Assembly: GCA_023053545.1 (NCBI GenBank)
Contig: JAKZAN010000001.1
Coordinates: 7,522,565 to 7,586,564, forward strand
DNA length: 64,000 nucleotides
Direction of reading: 5' to 3'
From: Lepidurus packardi
Lineage: Eukaryota; Arthropoda; Branchiopoda; Notostraca; Triopsidae
The translations under genes were made by a program, and so were the position numbers. This document shows positions 9,597 to 41,671 of this stretch, in pieces (position 1 is the first letter of the stretch; every line of letters begins with the position of its first letter). The notes below the pieces were generated by a model. The model was not told the DNA's origin. It saw nothing but the letters and a program-made list of their open reading frames with translations, and did not search any database.

Positions 9597-11662
9597 AGGA
9601 GCGTGCGGCTAGTACTACAAAACTGGAATGAAGAGGATTTGGAAGAGCCTTTATGGGGACTGGGAATTTGGGTCGAAAAGTAAGCACTTCACGTTGGTTA
9701 TGTGCGTTTCTTCATTTTTTTTTTCTCTTAACCTGTCCCAGTCTTAATTTTATTATTATTATTTACTAGTGGTTCTAAGGGATATTTTTTATTCTTTTCC
9801 CTCGCCTTTTTCTCATCTGCATTCCGAGGCAGGGGCAACGCAAAGAATGGTTAGCCTCAGGTAGAAAGACTTCTAGCATTAACGTACGTGGGTCGAAAAA
9901 AGAAGTTAAAATATTTTAAAAAATATACATTTACTAACCTCCACAAGGTGGCCATATTGCTTTTGTATTAATTCGTTTTTAAAGTTCCCCATAATTTGTC
10001 AGTTTTTATGTTATCTTTTTTTAAAAGCAACTTTATCTAGCCCCCCTCCCAACCCCAGCATGGCTCTATTACAGTTTTTGGCTTGTGTGCGTGTTTACAA
10101 TGGGCAGCTGTGTGAAGGAACATTTAGTATTGGTGCTGGAATTTGGCAAAGGAATGTATGGACTTAAATCCCGCCGCCACCCAATTTGCAACACACTATT
10201 CCGTTGGCGTTATTGTCATGAAATTTCTCTCCCCTGTGTGCAAGACTACGGTCAGTTTCTTCTGTTTGTTGCTCCATACCGTGCATGCGAGCCTATTGAG
10301 AAAGTTGCAAAAAGAAATTAGTATAACATTTTCGCGAAACATGAAAGAGTCGAGGCAGAAGTTATTGTGGGGATTATTTGAAACAAATAAAATTAACCCA
10401 TTACATGTCCGAATGCTTCAATCCAGTTTTTTTACTCGTAAGGCAAGCTGCTTTTTTATAGATACTTATTACTCTCCGAAGCAATCAGTTGTAGTTGTTG
10501 TTTTTTATCAAGAGCTTTCAATCATTGAGAACATTAGAACCACACTAGTATCAGAGTCCGTGAAAACAAACCTGGAGTTTAAATCTTGTTGGATTTGCGC
10601 GCAATGCTGTGATCGGCTAGTGCGGACGGATAAGTACGTGTTGGAGAATTACAGTGCACATGTTTTGGTATAGTTTCATGTACGAAGCTACTGCCCAGTA
10701 GACTGTTGTGCTTGGTTGACAACGATAGATTTACATCACGTGTAGTTTATTTCTGTCTTATATAAAAATTTCAAAACTAGAAAGTCATATTTCTGTTCTC
10801 CACTCGTCTGAGAATTTGAAGTTGGGTAAATTATTTAAGCTGAATTGTGAAACTTTATACTTGCAATTGAGACGATAATACAGCGTATATAGGGATAGGA
10901 GACGCAATTAAGATATTGGTAGGTAAAGCAGCTTTTAGCTAATTTTCCCAGTGGCATTCTTGGAAATGCAAAATTTCTCATGGAAAATAAACGGGAAAAT
11001 TCGGGACCTGGCGTCCCGGACCGTACACCGAAAACCCGAGTTGGATGTACCGGATTTGTCGCTTTCGTATCCTTCTTCCACACTATTCTCAGTGTTATGT
11101 ACATCAAGGAAATATCTGTATATGTGTCATTACTACAGCTAAGCTGAGAAGAACTACAGTAATAAAACATGAACAAGATCTTTTGGCTTCCTAAAAAAAT
11201 CTGGGGGTTTTCTGCCCACCAACGACAATATGTATATGTAGCATTATTCTAGACGGGAACAACTAAAGAAAGTAAACACATTACATCTAGGCAAAGTTCC
11301 TTTCAAAATATACGCAGTAAATTTAAGATCGATTAAAACCTTTAAAGTTAAAATTCCAGAGCCACGTATGATAGACTTGAGACTGAAAGTTACATGATCA
11401 CGTATGGTCTGCAAATACATGTGCTATGATCGAACATCTCTCCCGCGGAACAAAGAATAACGTCCTACACTTGCACTCGCAAGTTTGCTGGTCCCAGTAA
11501 CGATTCATCATTTCGCACCGTTTGTGAGCAACTTCATCCATACGTATGCAGTGACAATCTTTGTAGTATTATAACAAAATACCCAACAATTAATAACTGG
11601 ATAGGGACTAAACGTAGATGTAGTAACGAGTGTACCTGGTTCTCCAGGCAATCTGATTTAGC

Positions 11663-20606: not shown

Positions 20607-20960
20607 ATGAAGAAATGGATTACCCTATAACTGGTCACCGTAGCTACAGCTGGTGCTGCGTACGTGAAAGTATCGGACACTTTCACTGAAGCAGGAAGTT
20701 TTGATCACTTTGCTGACGAAGAAACTTCAGATACCTTCGCTCTAGATGAATCAGTTGAAACTTTCGCTGAAGATTAATCCGAATCACTAGATACTATCGT
20801 CGACAAAGAAATATCGGCCCTGGAGCAACGCAGCGATAACGATATTGTGAACGCTTTACAGCATTGGAAGAAAGTAAGCATTTTCCAAAAATTTCATTTG
20901 GAAACTAACCAGAATTCTGAGGCAGACTTCATACTGACCAGAAATCCTGAAGGTGTTTGA
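20607..20960 (+). pseudogene. Decayed frame of a secreted acidic protein (tentative)
   Basis: From ATG 20607 the frame begins MKKWITL, meets TAA at 20628-20630, and continues LVTVATAGAAYV, so read as a whole it looks like a signal peptide. It then runs through an acidic Thr/Phe/Glu-rich stretch, a second TAA at 20775-20777, and on to TGA near 20960. A possible splice donor (AAA|GTAAGC) lies at about 20873. The composition suggests former coding sequence, but no family was recognised. It might be the leader exon of the VEGF-like gene downstream, which the stops would then break. Low confidence. Confidence 0.3.
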
Positions 20961-21203
20961 AGTTGAACCAGGAAGTAAGATTCTTGATTTACTTTTCAAA
21001 TAATTAGTGTACATCTGTAACGTTGAAATTCCAGAATGCAGTAAACCTGCTAAAGGGAATGGGTTCATAGGAGGCTGTAGCCTCGGCTTCGCATGGTTTT
21101 CTTAGAGGTCCAACCCACACATTTCAATATAAGCTCATTTTCATGCTTTCCGGCCCATCCTTATTCGCCTCATTAAATTTACCTCTAATTCCAATGGAAA
21201 TAG

Positions 21204-21432
21204 ATCGTTACCAAACATGATTGAAGTGCTCCGCTGTGAGGGTTCGTGTAACAACCCAGGCCTGTCCTGCATGCCCACTAAGATATCCAAAGCAATAGTA
21301 CCTGTAACGAAGGTAACTCACCCTAATGCTAGAATGTCTAGTGACGATAAAGTAATTCAACACGATTCTTGTGACTGCCTTTGCACTGTGAATGCCTCGG
21401 ATTGCCAAGAAAATCAGATACAGAATAATTAG
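21204..21432 (+). CDS. PDGF/VEGF-family growth factor, terminal exon with second half of the cystine-knot domain
   Basis: After acceptor AG (21202-21203) the frame reads RSLPNMIEVLRCEGSCNNPG, then LSCMPT and, about 35 residues later, QHDSCDCLC, ending at TAG 21430-21432. It aligns without gaps near the knot to VEGF-A ([20 protein letters not shown]...QHNKCEC). Four of the six intrachain knot cysteines are obvious (RC, the second of GCC, LxC, and the CxC pair); the first would lie in an upstream exon. The two positions that form inter-chain disulphides in VEGF are Met and Ser here. Such factors are secreted ligands of PVR/VEGFR-type receptor tyrosine kinases. Upstream exons and the signal peptide could not be placed, so whether the gene is intact is unknown. 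Confidence 0.65.
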
Positions 21433-24400
21433 GAATAAGCGGCGATTTTGAATTATTTATTTGTCTGTAAATACACTACTTATTACCAAAGACTGTCGTT
21501 GCAAATGTAAGGACGAAAGAAAGCCCAAAGAATGCCATCATGGGAGCCATTGGGACGAGCGTACTTGCACGTGTATAACTTCCAACATGGAAATATTTGA
21601 TCGCTTGTTATGTACTTGCCGGTAGTATAATCCTACGAAACTGGGAAGATAAATTCGCTCTTCACTATTGTTATCGACAAGCGCGTTCATAAACTGATGC
21701 CTTGTAATAGTATTATCGAATGACTAATTACGAAGCCAGTACTGCAAACAGTTATGCTGCTGATACCAATACTGGTAATTGCACAAGTGTAATGTAAAAC
21801 CCCCGTTATTGTGAATAAAGTTGGATTTGAAACAACTGCTTATAGGTCTGCTGGACGGTAATCGGTAAGCCTCGACAGAGTGCTGTTTTCTGAATAGACG
21901 AATTCTCCGTTCTTGGCTGTCTCCCTGGTCATGTGCGGTCAGCTCGTTATAATTGAGGGAAATTTTTTTTGTGATCGAGCTTGTAAATTAAACAAAGCAC
22001 CTACAGACTAAATTGAGGATTCAAAAGAAATGTGATGGTGACGTCCCTATGAATTCAATGTCCGATTTTTAATGCGCCAATAGGCAAAGGCACTAGCTCT
22101 CCGGCCAACTGTCCCCAATGCTATAAGGATAGGAAATTCTGAAATTTGTCGGAAAGGGGCGGAGCTTAAACCGATAAATAATTAGTTACTCAATTAATAT
22201 GCATAATTGACATAAGGGTTCTTCGTCCAGAATACTTCAGTTGGTCTCCTCTATAACGCTTTTTCTTTAGACCTTACTCCCCCTTTAATATTGCATTTGT
22301 TCGATGAGCGAGTATGTAGCGAAACCGTTCACTTTGTTTTAACCCATTTAACCCAAAGGTGTGGTACGTGCAAATAGATTCTCTATGATTATTAAGCTAT
22401 TTTGCTTTAAATTTCCTAGAAGCCAAAATCAATAATTATGGAAAACTAAATTATTTTCCTGACAAATGTACTATCCGTAAATCTTTACAGGAAAACAGTT
22501 TAGTTCTTCCAATTTCATAAATCACTCAAGATAACTTTTTCGTATAATTTCAAATTTCAACGAATTCCTGTTGCCTGGTCTGCTAAGATAAAAAGAAGTT
22601 AATACCAAGTACACATTACAGACCATATATTATGTAGCTTAGACGAAATATTTGCTGGACAAAGATGCGTTTGGGAGGCAGAAAAAATGGCCAGCTTCGC
22701 AGTCCATCACAGATATCACTTCACAGTTGATATGATTTAGTTTTTGAATATAAAATGACGAAAAACTGTTTTAGCCAAGTATAGTTAAATATAAATTACT
22801 AAATACTTTCGTCTAACTGCACTGTTAAATAGTAGCAAAGGTTCATATAGTAGCAAAATATCAAATAGTAGCAAAAGTTCATATATTCGTCATGTACTTA
22901 AGCTAGTTCGAAATGTAGTTTGTCTCCGTTCTGCGGCGAACAGATCTTGGCCGACAGAAAAGACAAAAACATGTATTTGATTCCTCTGGTGTAGCCATGG
23001 CAAACATCAAAAACAGAGCTATGAAAGGACGTGCATTTGCCGCAAAACGTGGAATGCGTGTCAATAATCGAAAATATAAGTCCAATACAATAGACCTATA
23101 CAAGTCCTTCATATAGAATCTTATACTAAAGCAATATTTTCTTAAGCTGTCTTTCTCCCTCTCAAATAAAGGGCGGAATCCATATCTGTTTTCGTTTCCA
23201 ATCTCAACTGACTCCAATTTCCATCAGAATCCATTCGAAAACAACACAGTCCATAACAAACTATAATGACGTCTACAGAATCCAAGAACGAACAAACTCA
23301 ATACAAAAGACATCTCTAAAACGTAAAAGCTAACACATCACATTGGTCTTAGCAAACTATATTGACGAAATTGGTTTTTACAAGAAACTAAAACCGTTCA
23401 TTAAAGAATCGATCCCAGTCTTGTCCTTTTTCAGTCGATTGGAAGAACAAAACTGCAAACAAATTTGGAATTAAAACAATCAAGTAAATGGTACGATAAT
23501 ATTAACATTTTGCATTCGATCAATTTTTAATTCACTATTTTTAGCGTACTGACTTGGTTTTTAAGTGCTATTCATTCCTCAATAATCCGATTCAGCCCCA
23601 TCCGTGCAGCAAAGGGAATTCTTAATTAAAATTTTCCATTCAATCTTGTGTACTCTCGACCTCTTCCCTCATGCTCAACAAAAGGCACTGACAAGGGGTC
23701 TTCGCCGCTACAGTTTAGTGTGTTCCATGACAAGACTTCATTAACCACATTGGGCATGTTGCCCAATCAATTGTCCTTGGTACAGTCAATCGAATAATAC
23801 CATCCCTTCCAGCATACCCCTACCCCCCCTGATGCCATTTGTGTCGCAAAACCTTAATGTCTCCAGCAGAAGTTAGAAAACTGTGCCCTACTTTCCTTCC
23901 TCGCAGCATTAGAAACGATTCATAGTAGCCGTTTTTTGCTCCATCATTCTTTTTGGACTTGTTCATTCGATGATTACACGCTCCCAGCGATATGTCATGT
24001 GTGGCAATCTTGCAGGAAATGCAAGCCCGTAGGGGAAACCCGCTAAGACGTTTATCTTTCAAGGCACCTGCTTCATTGACAGATTGTCAGATTGTGTCGT
24101 TTTACGGACAAAAACTTGCTCCCAGCTTAACTTCTAACGCCTTTCATCCAGAAAACTCGGTACTCGTTGATTCATTTTCTTGCCCACACAACCGTTGAAG
24201 TCTTCGAAATACTGGCGTTTCTTTCGGGATGCAATCAATTTCCCACGCATGCGTTCCCACCTTGCCATGATTAAATTTGGCACGAGTTCTAGATGAAGAG
24301 ACCTTAGTTAACTGCATCCCCTTCACCTAGGAGGACACGTTTTTGGCGTTCAAGCATGCTCCCGTAGTTTCCTTTTATTACATTCGTTTGGAAAGCTCGT

Positions 24401-28155: not shown

Positions 28156-31100
28156 TTAAAGTTTCGGCACTTTCCACTGTAAATTGTTGAACCAGGATTT
28201 GGATTGCACTGAATTACGTTCAGTTAACAACGGCTCCTTCACGAATTCCACGTTGTCCAGGGCCCATTGATCCCAACCGTCTCCTCCGTGTTCGGGTTGC
28301 CACCACCTCAACTGCAAACCTGCTTGACGAGCCTTGACAGGCAAATGTAGCGAAACAACTCTTCCCTGCCAGGAAAACTTGATAAGATATTTTTAGTACG
28401 CCTATTTTTCTTACTTGAGAATAGTCTGCTTGGCCATACATCCCCAGTAAGTACCAATCTACCCCATGATTGGTGGTGAAATGCAAATAAATCGATTTTT
28501 CTAAAGCCAGGGTGGTCTCATTTTTAGCCCGGCAGCTTTTCCGCCCATTCACAGCCCCAGTTCGCAACGCAAAAAGCATCTTGCTAGAAACGCGAAAAAG
28601 AGATAAACTGAACAAAAATCAAGCATCTAATTTCCGAACCTGACTTCCTGGGCACTGAAAGGTTGAGTGATAGCCAATCTTTCCTGACATCCTCCAAAAT
28701 ACAATTGCTTTCCTTGCGCTACATTTCCACACTCGTGATTAACTTCCCCACCGTACACCAAAGCCCATTTATCCCCTTCGATCTCGGATTCAAATGGATC
28801 AAGCCAAGGACTTGGCAAAGCGTCAACCCATTCTCTGCCAGGAGAGCAATCGAGCTCTATCAATGTAACTTATTAGCCAAAGAACCTGTCCCATTACTAA
28901 CCAAAATATCTTTACTTTCGAATCCAGGATCGCACTCACATTTCCCATGGACACAATCGCCATGTCCGTAGCATAATTGTGGACACGCATTTCCTATATA
29001 AATGTCATCCAAAGCCCACAAATCCGAGCTGGCATTCACTCCCGATTCCTGAATCCAACGAAACTGCGTTCGCCTAAAAACATTCTTTTACGTAAAAAAA
29101 CACCAACGCTGTTTCGTTCCTCTTCAGAAAAACGAAGAAATAGAAGATAATTACCCTGAATGGGTCATATCCGGCAAAGCGTAGGTCACCCTCGTCCACG
29201 AAGAATACAAGTTCACTGTAAACTTGGAAGGGTACTGGGGATCGGTATTATAGCACTGCGGAGAATTATGGTTGGGCAAACAAGCGGGAATCACTTCAGT
29301 CCAATTTATGTTAGGAGTGCGAAATTGTAGTCTTACAGGCTCCGCTAGTATACAACTGCTCGGTATTCTTCCGCAGCCCACTCGAATCTACCGAAGTTGA
29401 TTTAATATGATTACAGATAGTCAGAGCTGAACACAGAAGGTATTGTTACTTTGAACTGGATCATAGTTCCAGCAACGACAATAGCTGGTTTGGATGTCAA
29501 CGATCGTTCTCCTTCTTCATTAGCCTCGGGCCATTGCATAGTTGGTCCAGAACCCTCTAATGCATTGCATTGCTCTACCGCCATATCGCCTTGTGGGTGA
29601 AACAGCCACCAATCATGACTTGCAGACTGGCTATCTGCAAAACTATCGTAGATATCCGCAGCACGTACATCCGATCCACCCATGTACACGTTATCCAAGG
29701 CCCAAGGTACGGTAGCGTTTTGTGCATTTTGGCCAATGGGCTGCCACCACCGAATGAGGGTCGCAGCTGTGTGACCCTGTTCTGGTATGTTCAATACTGC
29801 ATGAATAACTTTCCCATACCACCCATATTCCGCCAGCAAGTACCATTCTAACCCTAAAAATTAGAAAAGTCATCTGCCGTTTTAAGGAACCTGCCTTCAT
29901 TGCCGTTTTTGTTTGTATTCCAAACTTTTTGTTGTAAACTTTTCGAGAATTTATTATTATTTATTTAGATTTTTTTTTTAGTATTGCTTATTATTATTAT
30001 TTATTTATTTACATAATTAATTATTTTTCTATATTTATTACTATTATTTTATTTATTATGAATTATAAAAACATTATTTTAATGCAAATTATTTATGAAA
30101 GAGTAATTTATGCAAAATATCTACCATTATTGACTGAAAACTCGACGTAAACACTTGTAGAAGTACTATTCTGATTCTGGCAACTGCTTCGGTTGTTCTC
30201 GGATCCAATAAGCAGTACAAATTGCAAAGTAGGCGAAATGCGTAAGTCGACAGGTTTGCTCACTGCCATTCGTAAGCCCGGTCCAGAGAAAACTAGAGCT
30301 AGACCATCCATCAGCTTCTGACAAGGTAAAGTCACCTCTCCGCCCATGATTAAGGACCAGTGAAGTGGGTCCACATATCTTAGGTTGAAGTCGTCTTTAA
30401 TCCACATCTAAATTCAAGCGAAAATAAATCTGCAGTGCTAAACTAGAATATAAATAAGTATTTACGGGTGATTCTTCGTTGACAATGCTACAATCCGATC
30501 CGGAATATCCCTTTCGGCATTGGCAAGATTCTTGGACGCAAATCCCACGACCGAAACAGAGCCCAGGGCAGGAGGCCGAGCTTAAATGCACATTAGCTAA
30601 TGCGAAACGTGGTAAGCCTGGTGACGTCATTGGCACCGCCCAATCAGTGTAAGGAAACTGAATCCAGCGAAGTCTCAACGTTCTGCAAATATAAGAAGCA
30701 TTAGTACAGTAAATGGTCAAATCCCGGAAAGGTTGAACAATTTATTGTTAAAAATCACGTAAAAAATTATCAATAAGGATTAAAACTTCGAAAAAATAAC
30801 TTACTTGAAAGACGTCAATGGGCTACCGATGACATAAACGAAATTAGTCCAATTGAGAGGCGCATTATAAACGCTGGGAGCAGAAATAATTCCTCCTGCT
30901 GCTCCATGTAGTTTTTGCTCTCGGAGTAAAGACCATGTTACTCCACCATCGGTTGATCCTTGCAGCCAGACTGGCGCGTTTACAGCTCCTTCAGCCAGTG
31001 ATGTCTTTCCGCAGCCCAAAGCTAAAGCAAAGTTAAGGACAAGAGTTTCTATCTTGGAAGACATGGGAATGTCTGCAGTCTCCATGATAGCTCCATGATG

Positions 31101-34100
31101 GGCAGTAGCTTTTCCCAACCATAAACTGCCGTTATACTGACAATAAGAAGAGGCTGAGGTCATTTCGTCTTGCCGAAGCCAGTATTGCGAGTCCTGGAAA
31201 GTTCCCAAACTTATTTGCAGTGCCGGTACTGCTAAAAAACTGTCTATCGCCCAGTCAGCTTCCGCATGACCAGTATTTACCGGCTGCCAGAGCCTTAAAC
31301 GTGTTCCTACTTTCCTAGCTTCGTTTGGCAGTCGTACAGTTACCAGTCTATCCAAAACGTGCGCAATGAACATAAAAAAGTCACGAAATATCCTACTTGG
31401 GTTGATTGTAGTCCCAAAGACGTAATTCTAGCAAGGTTTTCCATTCGTTATGCAAACTGAATTGCAGGACAACATTGGTGTTTCCACTTCTGGTCAGGTT
31501 TCCTAGACAACCAGCTTGGAAATGAAACTGCAAAGCTCCAACAGCCATTAAATTTAGCGGTCGAGTTTCAGCGTAACGACTACATGCCTAACAGGCATAA
31601 ATGCGTATTAGAAAGAGACAATATGCATATAACTCAATTCCGACTAAAAAAAAAAAAACAGATTATAGAAAGCATGCTTTGTACCCCATAAAAATGTAAA
31701 GCGGTATCGGGTCCTACTCGAGGACACAAATCCGATATTTGTCCTCCGGCTACGACTTGCCAATATGCTGAATTAGCAGTTCTGTCGAACGTTTCTTTGA
31801 TGGATTGCGGCAACGAAGTTTGCGTGACGTCACAAGCATCGCCTATTATCAAATCAAACATTCTTAATTTAGAAAAAATTAGTTCCAAATGCTTACGCAC
31901 CTTCCCAAGGGAAATCGCAAAGACACTGACCAGAATCACATCGACCATGGCCAGAGCAAGCTCCGGGACATTCGTCACCTACATAAACCGAACTGAGTGC
32001 CCAACTTGCGCCAGCCACGCCTCCCGTATCCCTCCATCTTAAGCGCAAGGTTTTGGTCCTAAGAGAAATATAATCTCAATCTGAATGACTTTGTTTTCAT
32101 CGTTGAAACGTACAATGTCACTTCAGGCAAATCGAAAGTATAACGTCTACCAGGCAACGTCATTGACAGATCCGCAGGTAAAACCGATCCCAGTTCATAA
32201 TCTGTGCACTGCCAGGAGCTTTTGCCACTATTGGTTCCATAACCATACAGACAAGGTTGTTGTAATACTTTCCAAGTTTCACCCATGTCTACCGAGTATT
32301 CGACAATCACCACTAAACAGTGAAAAGAAATAATGAAATCGTAAGATTTCGGAATCATTTAATTTTTTTTTTACTGTAGCATTGAGAATGATGTTGGCAT
32401 CCCGTAATAAGTTGGAATTGCACGTAACTCTGTTCTCCTAATACAATATCCGTGGTAATAGCCACACGATTTTCTCCTGCAAAATAAACGTAAATAATAA
32501 ACATAATTACACATAAACAAAAAACATAAAGAAACAATAATTACACAAACATAATTACATAATGGTGATTTAAAAGATAGCACATTCGAGAGTCTTGAAC
32601 TTCGCCTACCATTGAAATGTAGAGCAGTTACGTTGCTCTGACAAATAGGTCCAGATGTTCCTCCTACGCGCAAGAGCCACTGACTGGCTTGAAGTGTCCT
32701 GAAATCATCCGACAAGGCTATTACTGCACTATATTCTCCGCCTACGAAGATATCATCTATAGCCCAAGCGGAATCGGGCTTTGGTTCCGGTTCCCAGAAC
32801 CTTAGCCTTGTCAAGCCGCCTAGAGCCTGTATTTCTGTTGGTAAAACTATTGAAATGAACTGCGAGGGCTTGTCGTACTCCATCAGCAAACTTTCTAAGC
32901 TTTGCCAATCTATTCCACCGTTGGAAGAGTACTGAATTAGTATCGTGGCTGAAGAAGTATTGCTCAAGGCGCACGACTTTATGTAGATCTGAAGAACACT
33001 GTAAGGGAAAAAATCAAAACATCAAGGATTTCATCGGAGAATCGGAGAAAAAAAATCATGTCACCTGGGCTGGGTAAGATTTAAATCGTATGTTTCTAGT
33101 AATCTCATGACAGGATCGTGAAAAACGAAGGCTGTACCAGCCGCCAATTGGCCACACCCACCGCTAATTTGACCTCCAAGTGCCCTTTTCCATTTGAGAC
33201 TGTCCGGGTCTTCGCTGTCAAAGTTTTCTCTTAGTCCAATTGGAATCTCGGAATGACTGATCTCTTTTTCGCAAGCATCCCCCTCGTAGTTCGTATCACA
33301 AACGCAGGTTTGGTTCTCGGTACAGAAACCGTGTCCGTTACATCTATCCAGACAAGGAGGGCCGACATAAACTGCGTCGAGGGCCCAATGAGGGGCTAAA
33401 AGGGGCCAAGGTGACCTTTCTTGCCTCCACCTGAATCTCGCCGGCCTATTATAAGATTTATATCTATGATTTATTTAATTTTTTTAAGATTTATTTGATT
33501 TATTTAATTTTTTAATATTTTAATTTTCTTTTAAATTTCTGTTTTAAGTTGCATAATTCTCATGATAGAGCAGTCATCACTGCCATCTTTTGACAAAAGG
33601 GATCTACTATTTGAATACACCCTGGCCTTCAGCAAAACAGATTGCATACCCAATAATCTGCAAGGACTGCAGCGAATAAGTCGAGCGTTGCCACGTACTC
33701 TCCGCATTTGCATAGTATATCGATGGCAAATCTTGAACGGTGGAATCTTGGCTATTTTTCTCTCGCAAAAGGGCCCAATGAGCTCCTCCATCGATGGAAT
33801 ACTCCAAGACCACGTAACCTTGGCTATAAAATTGACCACGACAACCAACTTTGATCTAGAAATACATTCTGAAAAAGTTACATTCCCCATATTATGTTTA
33901 TTAACTTGAAATTGGAGAACGGAGTTTTCAGTTACAAGTATATCTCGAGTGACGGCGTAATTATGCCCGGAGCTCGTCGAAAAAACTAGCGCCATTTGGT
34001 CTTCGGGCCTGCAGAAATTATTCAGAACGAGAATTATAGCGACGCACACTAATTTTCATTTCTTTTTAAATTCACGTGGTACAAAAAGCTTCTACGCGTC

Positions 34101-37100
34101 CACCAGGGTACGTTAACCAGCCTTCATCTCCTGGCTCGCCCGATTGCAAAGTGCTCGAGAATAAGCCCACAACCCCTCCGACTACCAAGAATTCGTCCAA
34201 AGACCAAGAATAGTCCTTCTCTTCTAAAAACACCAAAGGAAATTATGGTTCTTATTGTAAACAGATCCAATATTTTCAGACGGATTACTTGAAAGCTGTG
34301 GTTGCCACAATCGGAAACGTGTGGCGTTAGTTCGTATTTGGGGATGCCATTTCAGTGCAATAACATGGGTTTCGGGTTGAAACGAGGCCACCAAACTCTG
34401 TTAGAAGTGCATTAGTGTTAATAATGTCAATAGTGTAAAATAGTTAATAGAATAGTTAATATGTCAATAGTGTAAAACAGCATCAATTTTATTATAAGGG
34501 GTAAAGTACCTTAACTAACTCCCATGTTATGCCTCCATTCGTCGAGTATTGGAACAAGACGGTGACGTTCTGTTCCATACATGCCTGCCATGTCCATTGA
34601 ACGTAATTCGCACTAGCAATATCCAGGTCTGGAGTTTCAATCAACCGAGAATTTTCCTATAAAAAATGAATACTCATAATAAATTACAGAAGGTGAATTC
34701 TATCAAGTAATAAGTTAATTTATATTACTTGGTTAAACATAAGCGCTTTGCCATTCACAGGAACACATTCTTGAGTGCTTCGCGCACCACGAATTTTAGG
34801 CCAATAGGTTTGTTGGTCAAAAGTTTCTTTTAATTCGCAAGGTAAGGCGAACTGCGGAACACAGTGCAATCCAAAAAACCCGTCATCGCACCTAAAAAAC
34901 ACCAATTTGAATTAAATGGATAAAATTATTCCGTAATACAATGAACCTATTTCCTTTTTTTTTTTTTTTTTTTTACCTACAAACGCCTTGCACACATGCC
35001 CCATGGCCTGAACACAACCAAGGACACTGGTCACCTAAAGCCACACCCCTCAAAGCCCATCCAGTTGTTAAATTCGTGGCTGTAGCTTTGGAAATCCACC
35101 GAAATCGAGTCTGGCCTGACCTTGGGTGCACAAACCGAAACTGTAAATATATATTCTCAACAAAGAATAAGCATTTACCATGTGGGTTTGTGTAAAGGGA
35201 CCGTAAGACGCATCCACTCCGTATAATGCTGTGCGTGATACTCTGTAGGTAAATCGTAATGTGGGCAGCCGCGTTTGGGGGGTGTGCAGCCTTCTTCCAG
35301 TAACTGCCAGCTAACTCCCCAGTCTCTAGAATACTCCAAACGTAACTTTGGAAGTTTGCGCGTCCAGCGCAAAGTCTCTGTGTCGAGATTACATCCAAAT
35401 CGAAGTTCGAATTGCAAGAAACTGGACGAGCTTACTTCAAAGTCCCATGTTTCCGCAAATGTGTCGCCTTCTAAAATAGCAAATCATTTAACTGAATTAT
35501 CGAAGACTTGTGAAGTATACTTGGTAAAACTTCTAAATATAGTCCATTTTCAGGGCAGGGTATTAATGCAGGCTTCTGAACGTCGAACCATGGATGAGGG
35601 AAAGTTCCTATCACTGAATCCGCTTGGTATTTTCCTGTGTCTTCGAAAGATCCCGGATTGTTATCCTTCAAGGTAACCACGTCAGACAAAGACCAAGCTA
35701 CTTGGTCTACAAAATATATATACTTTTAAAACAATTTAAATTGCAAGAACTAACGTACCATTTTTCTCTGATTCAGCGTATTGCTGCCATTTGATGGACG
35801 TCGCTCGTGTCTTCATCTGGGCTGGAAGCGGCAACAAAACGCGTTGTCGATTGCTGAATTCAGAACCAGAAAGATTTTTCCACAACGTCCAAATGAGTCC
35901 GTTATGAACACTGTAGAAGAGCTGAACAGAATCCAAATCTTTAGCTTGGGAGCAAGCTAAACTGCCAGGTAGCTTTCCACCAATTTGCATCCGAAACGAC
36001 AGGGTTCTATAACGGACACAATATATCAATTTGGAATCGTTTAAGGTCGGAAATAAACCAACGCTTACCTAACATGTGACAAGTCTAACTCGCGAGTTTG
36101 GGCTACACGTGGCCGTTTCTGGTCCATTAATAACGCTGTTTCTAAATCACAATCAGATCCCATAGTTCCTCCATCCACAAACTGCCAAACATCGAGCAAA
36201 TGTTCTGCTCGCAGGTAGTCCACTATTCCGGGATCATTTACGACGCTCCCATCGCTGCAGTCTTCCCCTACAAACACATATTCACGCTCTTACAGACCTC
36301 CGAAACTATTCTAAGAAGTTACCGTAAAAACCATCATGGCAAGCGCACCGAGTGTGATTACAAAAGCCATGTCCGGAGCAGAAATTCGGACAGGAACCGA
36401 TACTCAGTTTTGCTATGGCTAATGGCCGTGACGAATTTGAGGATATCCAACGCAGTCGAGCAGTTCTATAGAAATAGACAATACGTCTCACAAATACGGT
36501 ATAGCTTGCACGCATTTTTGCATTACCTGTTAAATAGTGACTCCGGTATTGGAGCAGCAAAGTTTGTCCATCTACATAAGTTTCGAAGGTGAGAATCCGT
36601 GAGATTAAACCACAAATTTCCATCAAGACTGTATTGCAAAGTCACGCTTCCTAAAACTGTTTCGTTGCAACTAGAATGTATCTATACAGTGTAATGTTAA
36701 CATGAAACGTGTTGCTTATAGTATGTTTTGAGAAAAATACTTGGTATTGGACCACGAGATCAGTAGTGAATAGTATTGGGTTCGTAAGAAGCATATGTTC
36801 TCCCAAACTTCCCCACAGAAGTACATCTTCTTCACCGCAGTACGACGACAGCTGCAAATCCGACTTCAGAGGCAAAAGCCATAACGATTCTGAACCCAGC
36901 ATTTCCTAAAAAAAAAAAAAATAAAAAAAAAATCCATCGAAAATTGGAAAAGAAAATCTTACAACTCCGGAGATGGTTGTAAGATTGACAGGATTATCTT
37001 GCGACTCTAGCGAAATAATCCTTAAGGTCCACGTATGGTTACCAGCTAATTGCGGTTTTTGCCAAAATCGGAATCGAATCCAACTAGTTTTAGAATTCTT

Positions 37101-40100
37101 AGGAAATTCCAAGCTTTCTAGACTAGATTCGACCAACACATTTCAGCATCCAATTAATTAAATTATATGGAGAAATTACTTGGGTTCTTTGAAGTACCGG
37201 GAAGTGAAAAGTTTCCAAAAAGTCCACTCTGCCCCGCCCTTTTCAGAAAACTGCAACTCAAGCTCGAAATCTTCCTTGGGGAATGACATCTGAAGTGTAA
37301 AAACCAATCGCCCTTGAGTGGAGTAAGGCATGTCGTTGGTTTCTAAGCTACGTAAGCCAGCGTGAACGAAATGTACCCCACCGCTCGTATTCCAATTCCC
37401 TCCAATGGTTTTGTACTCCGGAGGACGTTGCGAAGGTATACATTCGCCTTTAAAGTTAGTTTCGTCACAGCTTAACATAAGAAATTACTTGGGGCTTCGT
37501 TCTTAAATGCTACTTTTTACCTGCAGCCTCCTTCAGTGCACTGCCCGCGATGCCAGCAATATTTTGTACAAGGTGGCCCTACGTATAAGCGGCTTAAACC
37601 CCACGGAAGCTCTTTCGATGTAAACGACGTTTGTGTGAATTTTAAGCGGACTGAATTTCCCCAACTATTCCTCGGTAACGGAACACTAAGGCGTGTCCAA
37701 TTTTTCAATGCGGTTACATGGTATGGAAACCCGTATTTTTCTTGCACATTCAGCCAGGCTACGCCTTCATCCAAGGAATATTCCAAGCCGAGCTATTAAA
37801 AATACAAAACAGAATCATCATTGGGAAATTTGCAATGAAGTCCAGTAAAACGTACCTCACCATCGTCAATGCCTGAACAGGTAGATAATTCAGCTTGCAG
37901 AACCCAACCAGCACCAACTTGGATAGGTCCGGCTTCCAACTGATGAGATACTAACCACACACTATCCCTGCCGCAATAATGCCCCCACTGGCCTGACGCA
38001 GGGCGCATTAAGTGCAAATTTGTGGTCGGTTGAGTTGAATTCCAATATAAAGGGCCTGGTAAGGACTCAGCTACATAGAAATCATCAATGGCAAAAATGT
38101 CTTGGTTTTTGCCCGAGTGTAATGGCTGCCATAAACGTAACTGACAGGATGGGCCTCGCAATTTCTCCGGTATTGAAATTCGGTATTGTCTTTACAAAAA
38201 AAAGGAAAAGAAATATGTTTAAATTTTTTAGTAGTTTAGTAATTATATTAGTTTGGTACAAAGTATAGCAAAAGTAAGCTTAATAGTAACTAAAAAAGAA
38301 AAAGATTTGTCAGAAGTGGGATTTGAACCCACGCCCTCTAACGAGGACCAGAATTCACCATAGCCCGTTGCGGGGCAAGCTTGCACTTGAGTCTGGCGCC
38401 TTAGACCGCTCGGCCATCCTGACATACGAGTATTATCAACTTGTAAGGATTATATTACAAATTATGACCTTTATACGAAGCGTTGGGGGTAGTCGCTGCA
38501 AGTAGATTAACGGAGAGGAACCTTAACAGCGTTCAACTTGAGAATGCTAGCAAACGTTTAAACTTAAACGAAGCCTCTTATGAGTTTTTAAAATTTTTAT
38601 CCGTTTTGAAAACAGTGACAGCGAATGCAGCATTACAATTCAAGTACCGAAAACCAATACAGAGAACAATTTACCTTGTTTCTTGTCCACTGGTTGTTCC
38701 AAAGTGCTGAATTAGGTCCCAGGTTAATCCTCCATTACAGGATCCATGTAAGTAAAGTCGTTCGCCTGGTCTATCAGGCCCAGGACATAAGCTACGGCTA
38801 CTAGCCGGTCCTCCTACCTTGATGGTCAATTGTAGTTGCGTTGCTCGTGTAGTATTGACGGCTCGAGTAAGCAAGAGTCGGCTATGTTCTCCCGCAAACA
38901 CAAAGGCGTAATCCAAAGAAACTATTCCACACTGGAGTGAGGAAAAACCTCCCACAATCTAAGATGAAACTGATTAACTATCCAAAACCTGGCGTGCTAA
39001 ACTTATTTAATTATACCTTGGAGAAAGTTTTGCTTAAATCCGATTGACTATCGAAGTTTTCTTTCAGACTCACCGCAGTGCGCACCAAAGCCACTTCGCA
39101 AAACGCCCCAGTGAAACCCAAATCGCACCTAATTAAGCCTTTTAAATAAGCAATCAACTTTCCGCCATCCTTTGCGGTATTACCTGCAAATACCCCTAGG
39201 CTGGCAATCCCCTTTGCCGTGACAAGAATTAGGGCAGTGTCCAACATAAACCTTATCGATGGCCCAAGAAGGTCCTTTTTGCTTTAAACGCCCCTTTTGT
39301 GTAAATCGAATTCTTGTGGTCGCACTCAAAGCCGCGTAGGGTAGAATTGCACTAATTCTCTGCCCCCTATAAAGACACAAAATTACGTTACTACTACGGA
39401 ATTACGAAATGACCAAAATACTTACGGATCAATTTCTAAGCTAGAATAAGACGTTTGCTGTCCCATATGTGCCCCAAGGCAAACAGGGGGAAGACATGAA
39501 GTTTGCAGGTTACTCCAAACACCCCCTTGATCATTCGAGAATTGCACTGAAATTTGCAAATTGGTAGACCCGTTGCCCTGACAGTCTAACTGGGCACTAA
39601 ACTGCAAAGCGTGTTGAGGACGACTGGGTAATATGGGTAAAAGTATGATCTGGCCAATAGTCCATGCTGGATTGAAAAGCGGATTCTCTCGTCCCAGTTG
39701 CCAGCAAATTCTCGCTTGCGATTTCTGAGCACTTGATGGAATGACTAATGAAATCGATCGTGCTTCCTACGGCAAAAAATTCAAAATTAAACACGCAGGT
39801 AGAAATGTTAACCCACTTTTCGGACGAGGAGAACGTTTTGCTGCAAATAGTGCTTCTCGCCTTGACTTTCAAGCCACACGTACATCCGGGCAGCTTGAGA
39901 CATGACGGAAGCACTTTGGTTGCCAAAGCAGTCTTCAAAATACGGCGCCAACCGATATCGTAGGTTTCCCGCCAAACTCGCGTTCAAAAATCCCGTACAT
40001 GCAAAAGCAGCGCTGTTATTTTTTTCCATCCTAAACAGAAGCTTGTCTTCTTGGCAAAAAACTGGCGCTACTCCTTGCAACAACCATCTGAATAAAACTT

Positions 40101-41671
40101 ATGATTAACTTGCCTTACTTGTAATTCATTTTTACCCTTGATTAGCAGGGGTTTTCAAATCCGCCTTCCATAAAATGTCATCCGTCAATGGTACCGACGA
40201 TAGTTGCAGATCCCTCGTTGTGGCCCAATTGGGTTTCTTGTTATTGCTATCGAATCGTAACGAAAATCCCGACCCGCCACAAGTTCTCTAAAATTTTGAA
40301 AGAATCGACATATTTATACATGAACGCCACCTTATGAAGCAATACATCAATTGTTCCTCCAGGGAAGAAGATCCATTTCGAGGGATCGAAAGGATCGAAA
40401 TTAGCTTGAAGAAACGTTGGGCGGCGATCGGCATTGCTAATAGCCACATCGTCTAATCCCACACATTCATTTCCGTACGATTGTAACTGGAAACAAACGT
40501 CCAGCTTCCTAGTTTGGATCGGCAACGGAAGAATGTGTATCGCGACATCTTTGCTCTTAGGACTAAAATGAGAAACTTCTCAATCACTATCAGTTTACTT
40601 TAATTCAACTAACTTACTAACCTGAACTTTTGGAGTTCGGTAATGTTTACACACTTGCCGTTTTTCCATTGCCCATACGAGACCGTCAAATTAGCTTCGG
40701 TTTCCGCTAGGGGCGTCAAGTTCGAATGATTGCCGCAGGGAGATTTGGCTAGGGCGAACTGTAATACTCCGGCAGTAGTGCAGTTTAAGACATTAGTAGT
40801 AATACTGCCGTTACATAACTGCACGCCAGAATTATACAAAACCGAGCCGCATTCATCTCCCACTTTAAGATTATTCGATTCACTCCTAAATCCGAACACC
40901 ATAAAGAATTGTCAACGAAATGATAATAAATTTACCATAGACTTATATCCAAATCTTTTCGCATGGCAAAATCGTCTCTAAAAATTACTCCCTCTTCGTG
41001 AATCCCAGCTAAGACCACGTTTACATCGTTCAAAGATCCTTCCTCGCATATCTGGTAGACTGATACGTCTTTCATCAAAATCTGCCCCTGAAACGTTGCA
41101 GTGGCACTACGAAAATGCATGCAGTAAATATAAATGAAATTATGAATGTACAAAGCAATTTACATAAACTGAACACAGCCCGTGTTTGCAGGCGGAGCCA
41201 TCCACAAGAACGTCACGTTGGAATTTGGTTCTCTTCCAATATACGAATGCACTACGGAACACAATTGTCCGCTGGATTGCTTCTCAGGAAATGAAAATAG
41301 CAGAAATGAAGGAGCGGTAAATGAAGGGGGCGTGGAGTACACCCCTGTCATGAGAAATCCGTCGAAAGGTGTACTCAACCAGGCATTGACTGCAAGTAAT
41401 CAATCGAAATAACGTCACTCTTATGCGAAATTAAGGGATTCAATCATGTATACAACAGTTTAATAACTTTACCTTCATAGATTTGCCCAGGGGTGTAAAA
41501 CATAGGATTTTCCGATAAACTCAATTTGAATGACGTCGCACTTGAAATGGATTGACCAGGGGCGTGGTAATCGCAGAAAAAAAAAAAAGGTGAAAGCATT
41601 CCTCCAGATTTAATAACCAAAAGAAACAGAAAGCCAACAACACTTCTCCATTTCGCACCGCGGGTCTCCAT
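28156..41671 (-). CDS. RELN: Reelin, full length (reeler domain plus eight reelin repeats)
   Basis: Reelin is a large secreted matrix signal; in vertebrates it binds ApoER2/VLDLR and guides neurons. The start at 41671 gives a hydrophobic leader, then the reeler domain over exons down to about 40935 ([34 protein letters not shown]). Eight reelin repeats follow, each with an EGF-like module near 39240-39085, 37575-37440, 36400-36270, 35020-34865, 33357-33270, 31970-31890, 30575-30490 and 28990-28925 (for example [14 protein letters not shown]). BNR/Asp-box motifs recur ([33 protein letters not shown]), as do RWxQ/WALDxVYVG strands before each EGF. About 40 short exons give an estimated 3,300-3,500 residues (human 3,460). 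The last exon ends [12 protein letters not shown]...VPKL and lacks the Arg-rich C-terminal tail of vertebrates. No frame break was found, but not every junction was checked base by base. Confidence 0.95.
38308..38423 (-). tRNA. tRNA-Leu(CAA) with intron
   Basis: The minus strand reads GTCAGGATGGCCGAGCGGTC with D arm, anticodon arm (CAGACTCAAG, anticodon CAA at 38387-38389), a ~32-nt intron (TGCAAGCTTGCC...), the 3' half TTCTGG, a long variable arm, and T arm GGGTTCAAATCCC; the acceptor stem closes perfectly (GTCAGGA/TTCTGAC + A). Eukaryotic tRNA-Leu(CAA) genes commonly hold an intron just 3' of the anticodon. A T-rich pol III terminator follows (CTTTTTCTTTTTT). It lies in a reelin intron on the same strand as reelin. 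Confidence 0.97.

Follow-up and report, generated by a model that had tools for sequence, protein, structure and literature searches.

The knot exon that starts at position 21204 of the window, by which we mean the whole 64,000-nucleotide stretch of DNA analysed (C1:7522565-7586564), is very probably exon 4 of W, a pseudogene of an invertebrate PDGF/VEGF-like factor (PVF) with a Cys-rich, BR3P-like tail, and its lack of both inter-chain cysteines was inherited. At least four related copies lie on C1, the contig of the window: A and B, two intact paralogues in tandem, and two broken ones, W itself (the window copy) and P, its nearest copy. Because the pair is missing from A, B, W and P alike, the comparison of their sequences shows that the loss of both cysteines preceded the decay of W. 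The loss, which the first-pass annotation had noted for this exon, is already in print for the family, as passages of PMC10328876 describe.

The open reading frame at 21133-21432 (+) consists of 99 open codons from the preceding stop, and its translation includes SLPNMIEVLRCEGSCNNPGLSCMPTKIS, followed by QHDSCDCLC. With the Pfam profile of the PDGF/VEGF family (PF00341), it scored 39.6 bits (E 6.6e-10), exceeding the curated cut-off of 27, and residues 22-82 of the frame matched profile positions 19-82. This was the profile check that the first-pass annotation had proposed; together with a phmmer search against solved-structure sequences, in which exon 4 of W was aligned to VEGF-A chains, it bears out the earlier description of a VEGF-A-like knot exon. 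The top chain, 1mjv, has Ala in both inter-chain columns where the W stretch, PNMIEVLRCEGSC, has Met and Ser, so the Met of PNM and the Ser of GSC occupy the first and the second inter-chain columns of W, respectively, and the replacement of both cysteines, read earlier from the letters, was confirmed. The same two columns are thus without Cys in 1mjv and in W, but 1mjv is canonical VEGF-A in an altered, engineered form and not a natural subfamily.

With Met and Ser in place of both inter-chain cysteines, the full eight-cysteine pattern is absent from W. All of the knot cysteines that belong to exon 4 are kept (5/5), in agreement with the earlier claim that the visible intrachain cysteines are preserved, and the additional Cys behind the CxC, also pointed out before, is real and is found in this genome's two canonical copies as well. 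The codon of the sixth knot Cys lies in exon 3 of W and is split from exon 4 by frame changes and a lost donor, whereas in A and B all six knot cysteines are in one frame. The exon span given previously, 21204 to 21432, was right at its start but not at its end: the homologous exon stops at 21417, and 21418-21432 is read-through that arises because the donor of exon 4 is gone. Relative to A, B and P, exon 4 of W has one extra base at 21208/21209, so that the phase in which its open frame meets the acceptor is not that of the family. In addition, a loop Cys that is encoded by TGT in A, B and P is Ser (TCT, 21337-21339) in W.

The exons of W are spaced apart as in A and B (Table 1). With flanks included, exon 1 is identical to that of A at 176 of 266 aligned positions and exon 5 at 119 of 156, and the latter was also found by tblastn with A and B. 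Both stops in exon 1 are TAA, and in exon 3 one base is missing, relative to A, just past the first knot Cys codon. Exon 5 sits behind the lost acceptor; its repeat is shortened, with C-x10-C-x-C and then Thr instead of the last Cys, and it runs into an early stop at 21623-21625. Compared with A and B, W has eight lesions, namely three in-frame stops, two single-base frame changes and the loss of three of the eight splice dinucleotides (5/8 are kept). The stops at 20628, 20775 and 20935 and the other lesions leave no intact secreted protein to be read from W. In its lesions, the little sign of selection and the retained introns, W is a duplicated (unprocessed) pseudogene, and it would make no protein and most likely makes nothing. 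The earlier suggestion that a factor is made at the window locus fails on these eight disabling changes. An internal donor of exon 4 that would link it to exon 5 was also considered and was rejected, as the sole in-phase junction seen by eye would replace the first Cys of the CxC.

Table 1 Coordinates of W, its relatives on C1 and a second relic in the window (W and the second relic in window positions, the other copies in C1 positions).
Feature	Position	Strand	Description
W exon 1 relic	20607..20873	+	Signal-like start, acidic leader; stops 20628-20630 and 20775-20777; donor GT kept
W exon 2 relic	20926..20974	+	TSY*PEILKVFEVEPG; in-frame stop TGA 20935-20937; acceptor and donor kept
W exon 3 relic	21035..21128	+	First knot Cys codon 21076-21078; donor AT, not GT (21129)
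W exon 4 relic	21204..21417	+	Knot core, Met/Ser in inter-chain columns; donor AT, not GT (21418)
W exon 5 relic	21482..21625	+	BR3P-like repeat of the Cys-rich C-terminal tail; no AG at the acceptor
Second relic, same family	11053-11661	-	Tail of exon 4 and exon 5 (both A-type), intergenic stretch, exon 1 (B-type)
A	C1:4175273-4176310	-	Exons of 243, 52, 83, 222 and 183 bases; 260 aa
B	C1:4173869-4174919	-	Exons of 138, 52, 101, 210 and 198 bases; 232 aa
P	C1:4209717-4210361	-	Nearest copy to W; aligns in two pieces of 79% and 75% identity

The second relic lies 9 kb from W and holds the tail of an exon 4. It is identical to the A-B tandem at 503 of 604 aligned positions, intergenic DNA included, and its exon 5 has lost one base. 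Since the match spans the DNA between A and B, the window holds the remains of a duplicated A-B tandem besides W. Elsewhere in the window, reelin-like exons were seen on the minus strand at about 30000-41000, where the one ORF tested (30801-31424) matched Reelin_subrepeat-B with 61.6 bits. Inside this stretch of exons lies a tRNA of 116 bases (38308-38423, minus strand; Rfam, 48.1 bits), which was not reported by ARAGORN and perhaps bears an intron.

A and B stand in tandem on C1, at 4.17 Mb, each with five open exons. Their exon models were drawn from homology and splice signals, and all eight introns can be drawn as GT-AG, although this is partly by construction, as splice signals guided the placement of the exons. 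Exon 2 is 52 nt long in both A and B (SLYRPESHQVFGIENQS and STYRPEIWNVYEIYDEK, respectively), and that of B was picked among four open candidates of the right phase for having the same length as exon 2 of A and a similar sequence. The layout read from both sequences is a signal-like start, an acidic leader, the knot and a Cys-rich tail, and each protein contains 20 cysteines. Exon 5 of A and B carries a repeat of the C-x10-C-x-C-x-C type, but 11 residues separate its first two cysteines. The whole A protein scored 41.2 bits for PF00341; the whole B protein matched no Pfam family at E up to 0.1, and exon 4 of B alone scored 31.7 bits in the genome profile search. Over the whole frame, dN/dS between A and B was 0.32, a rough value since dS is high (1.29). 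Judging from their sequences, A and B are predicted to be secreted, to act as ligands of a VEGFR/PVR-type receptor and to dimerise either non-covalently or through other cysteines.

Two additional cysteines were found in A and B. One precedes the first knot Cys, with 8 (A) or 12 (B) residues between, and the other is a loop Cys about 10-11 residues ahead of the CxC, counted to the first Cys of that motif (NTC in A, VSC in B); P has the loop Cys, as TTC, at the same spacing to the CxC as A and B. In the open frames read for the canonical copies on C6 and at C3:11.07 Mb, neither of these cysteines was present at these places. The N-terminal segment of each chain in a VEGF dimer lies close to loop 3 of its partner. 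One conceivable but unlikely interpretation is that the N-terminal and the loop cysteines of A and B form a replacement inter-chain bridge, which would give a covalent dimer with relocated disulphides.

In the whole assembly (108.6 Mb, 344 contigs), the search with PF00341 identified 10 places, of which 8 exceeded the cut-off. Both inter-chain cysteines are present (PAC/PGC, RCGGCC) in the copies on C6 and at C3:11.07 Mb, the latter of which is split over two exons and was aligned by its first exon alone. Four copies at C3:12439913-12460949 (12.44-12.46 Mb) are without the first inter-chain Cys only and keep the second (PPAAVLHVC...GGCC), and on C1 all of A, B, P and W are without both, Met occupying the first column in 4/4. 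Genome searches with exon 4 of W and with A and B detected no further full exon 4 among the best candidates scored.

The same assembly contains many pieces of mitochondrial COX1 with internal TGA on C1, C2, C4, C5, C6, C21 and C38. These are mostly on C1, C2 and C4, suggesting that they are probably nuclear copies, and the one that was examined fits the invertebrate mitochondrial code (AGA = Ser, ATA = Met). Long stop-free COX1 frames were observed on C52, C43 and C214; the one on C52 is closest, among the 80 loci listed, to Flavobacterium (92%), which means that some bacterial sequence is included in the assembly.

P is broken as well: its exon 1 has stops, exons 2-3 are absent and exon 4 carries an additional base. 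One of the exon 1 stops coincides between W and P in the alignment, where it adjoins a gap in P, suggesting that the decay probably began before W and P separated. In exon 1, the differences between W and P are spread evenly over the codon positions (10/11/11 of 76 each), and dN/dS for the first 48 codons is 1.07. The corresponding counts in exon 4 are 20/12/17 of 71 each, and dN/dS is 0.68 over the part that precedes P's frame change, a value based on a small number of changes (9 synonymous, 23 nonsynonymous). Between exon 4 of W and that of A or B, dS is saturated and dN is 0.38 and 0.36, as expected if the lineage of W was constrained and then decayed.

A functional gene that uses a different start and different splice sites and makes a short VEGF-like protein, non-covalent or monomeric, would accord with the 99 open codons, with the Pfam score above the cut-off and, as far as so few changes can tell, with the W-P dN/dS below 1 in exon 4. 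However, a stop or a frame change is present in all three upstream exons of W that can be recognised, the donor of exon 4 and the acceptor of exon 5 are gone and the differences in exon 1 are even over the codon positions, and we consider such a gene very unlikely. The open exon as evidence of selection was rejected by neutral simulation of exon 4 of A or B (3,000 runs each), in which the frame was still open in 49-52% of runs at 10% change and in 34-37% at 15% change; since about half of the runs remained open at 10%, an open exon 4 does not speak for function.

On the view that W is functional, sequencing or assembly errors could account for its two lesions that are single-base length changes, a common type of error, but the three stops and at least two of the splice-site changes are substitutions. 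P, moreover, has its own, different lesions and one stop in common with W, and the flat codon-position pattern between W and P in exon 1 also speaks against errors, which makes this explanation extremely improbable. As for the inter-chain pair having been lost through the decay of W, the change of the loop Cys to Ser means that W did lose one more Cys than A, B and P, but the intact A and B are without the same pair and all four copies have Met in the first column. Unless the gene models of A and B are wrong, these two paralogues refute a loss by decay, which is almost certainly not what happened.

The reading of W as a decayed PVF that inherited its cysteine loss can be set beside what is known of the family. 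Passages of PMC10328876 report that one or both inter-chain cysteines are frequently missing from invertebrate members, for example from cnidarian VEGFs, Drosophila PVF-2 and C. elegans PVF-1, and that some of these absences may be alignment artefacts. In the same passages, invertebrate PVFs have the PDGF/VEGF knot, as the family of W does, and the knot of the cnidarian ones is followed by BR3P Cys repeats. For Xenacoelomorpha, PMC10328876 found no PDGF/VEGF-like proteins, an absence to which it attaches no weight. W differs from invertebrate PVFs in being a pseudogene, and A and B differ in the cysteines of the N-terminal segment and of the loop before the CxC, which the genome's two canonical copies do not have. 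A Cys-rich tail after the knot, as in the family of W, is also seen in VEGF-C and VEGF-D with their silk-homology (BR3P) tail. Unlike the family of W, vertebrate members except PDGF-C are described in PMC10328876 as keeping the eight-cysteine pattern; according to those passages, VEGF-C can still form non-covalent dimers and a stable VEGF-A can be made without inter-chain cysteines. Without the standard cysteines, A and B would dimerise non-covalently, as described for VEGF-C in that source (PMC10328876), or via other cysteines.

Our observations on W caution against taking a dead exon for a new kind of signal. It is the A and B pair, and not W, in which dimerisation without the standard inter-chain disulphides could be tested.
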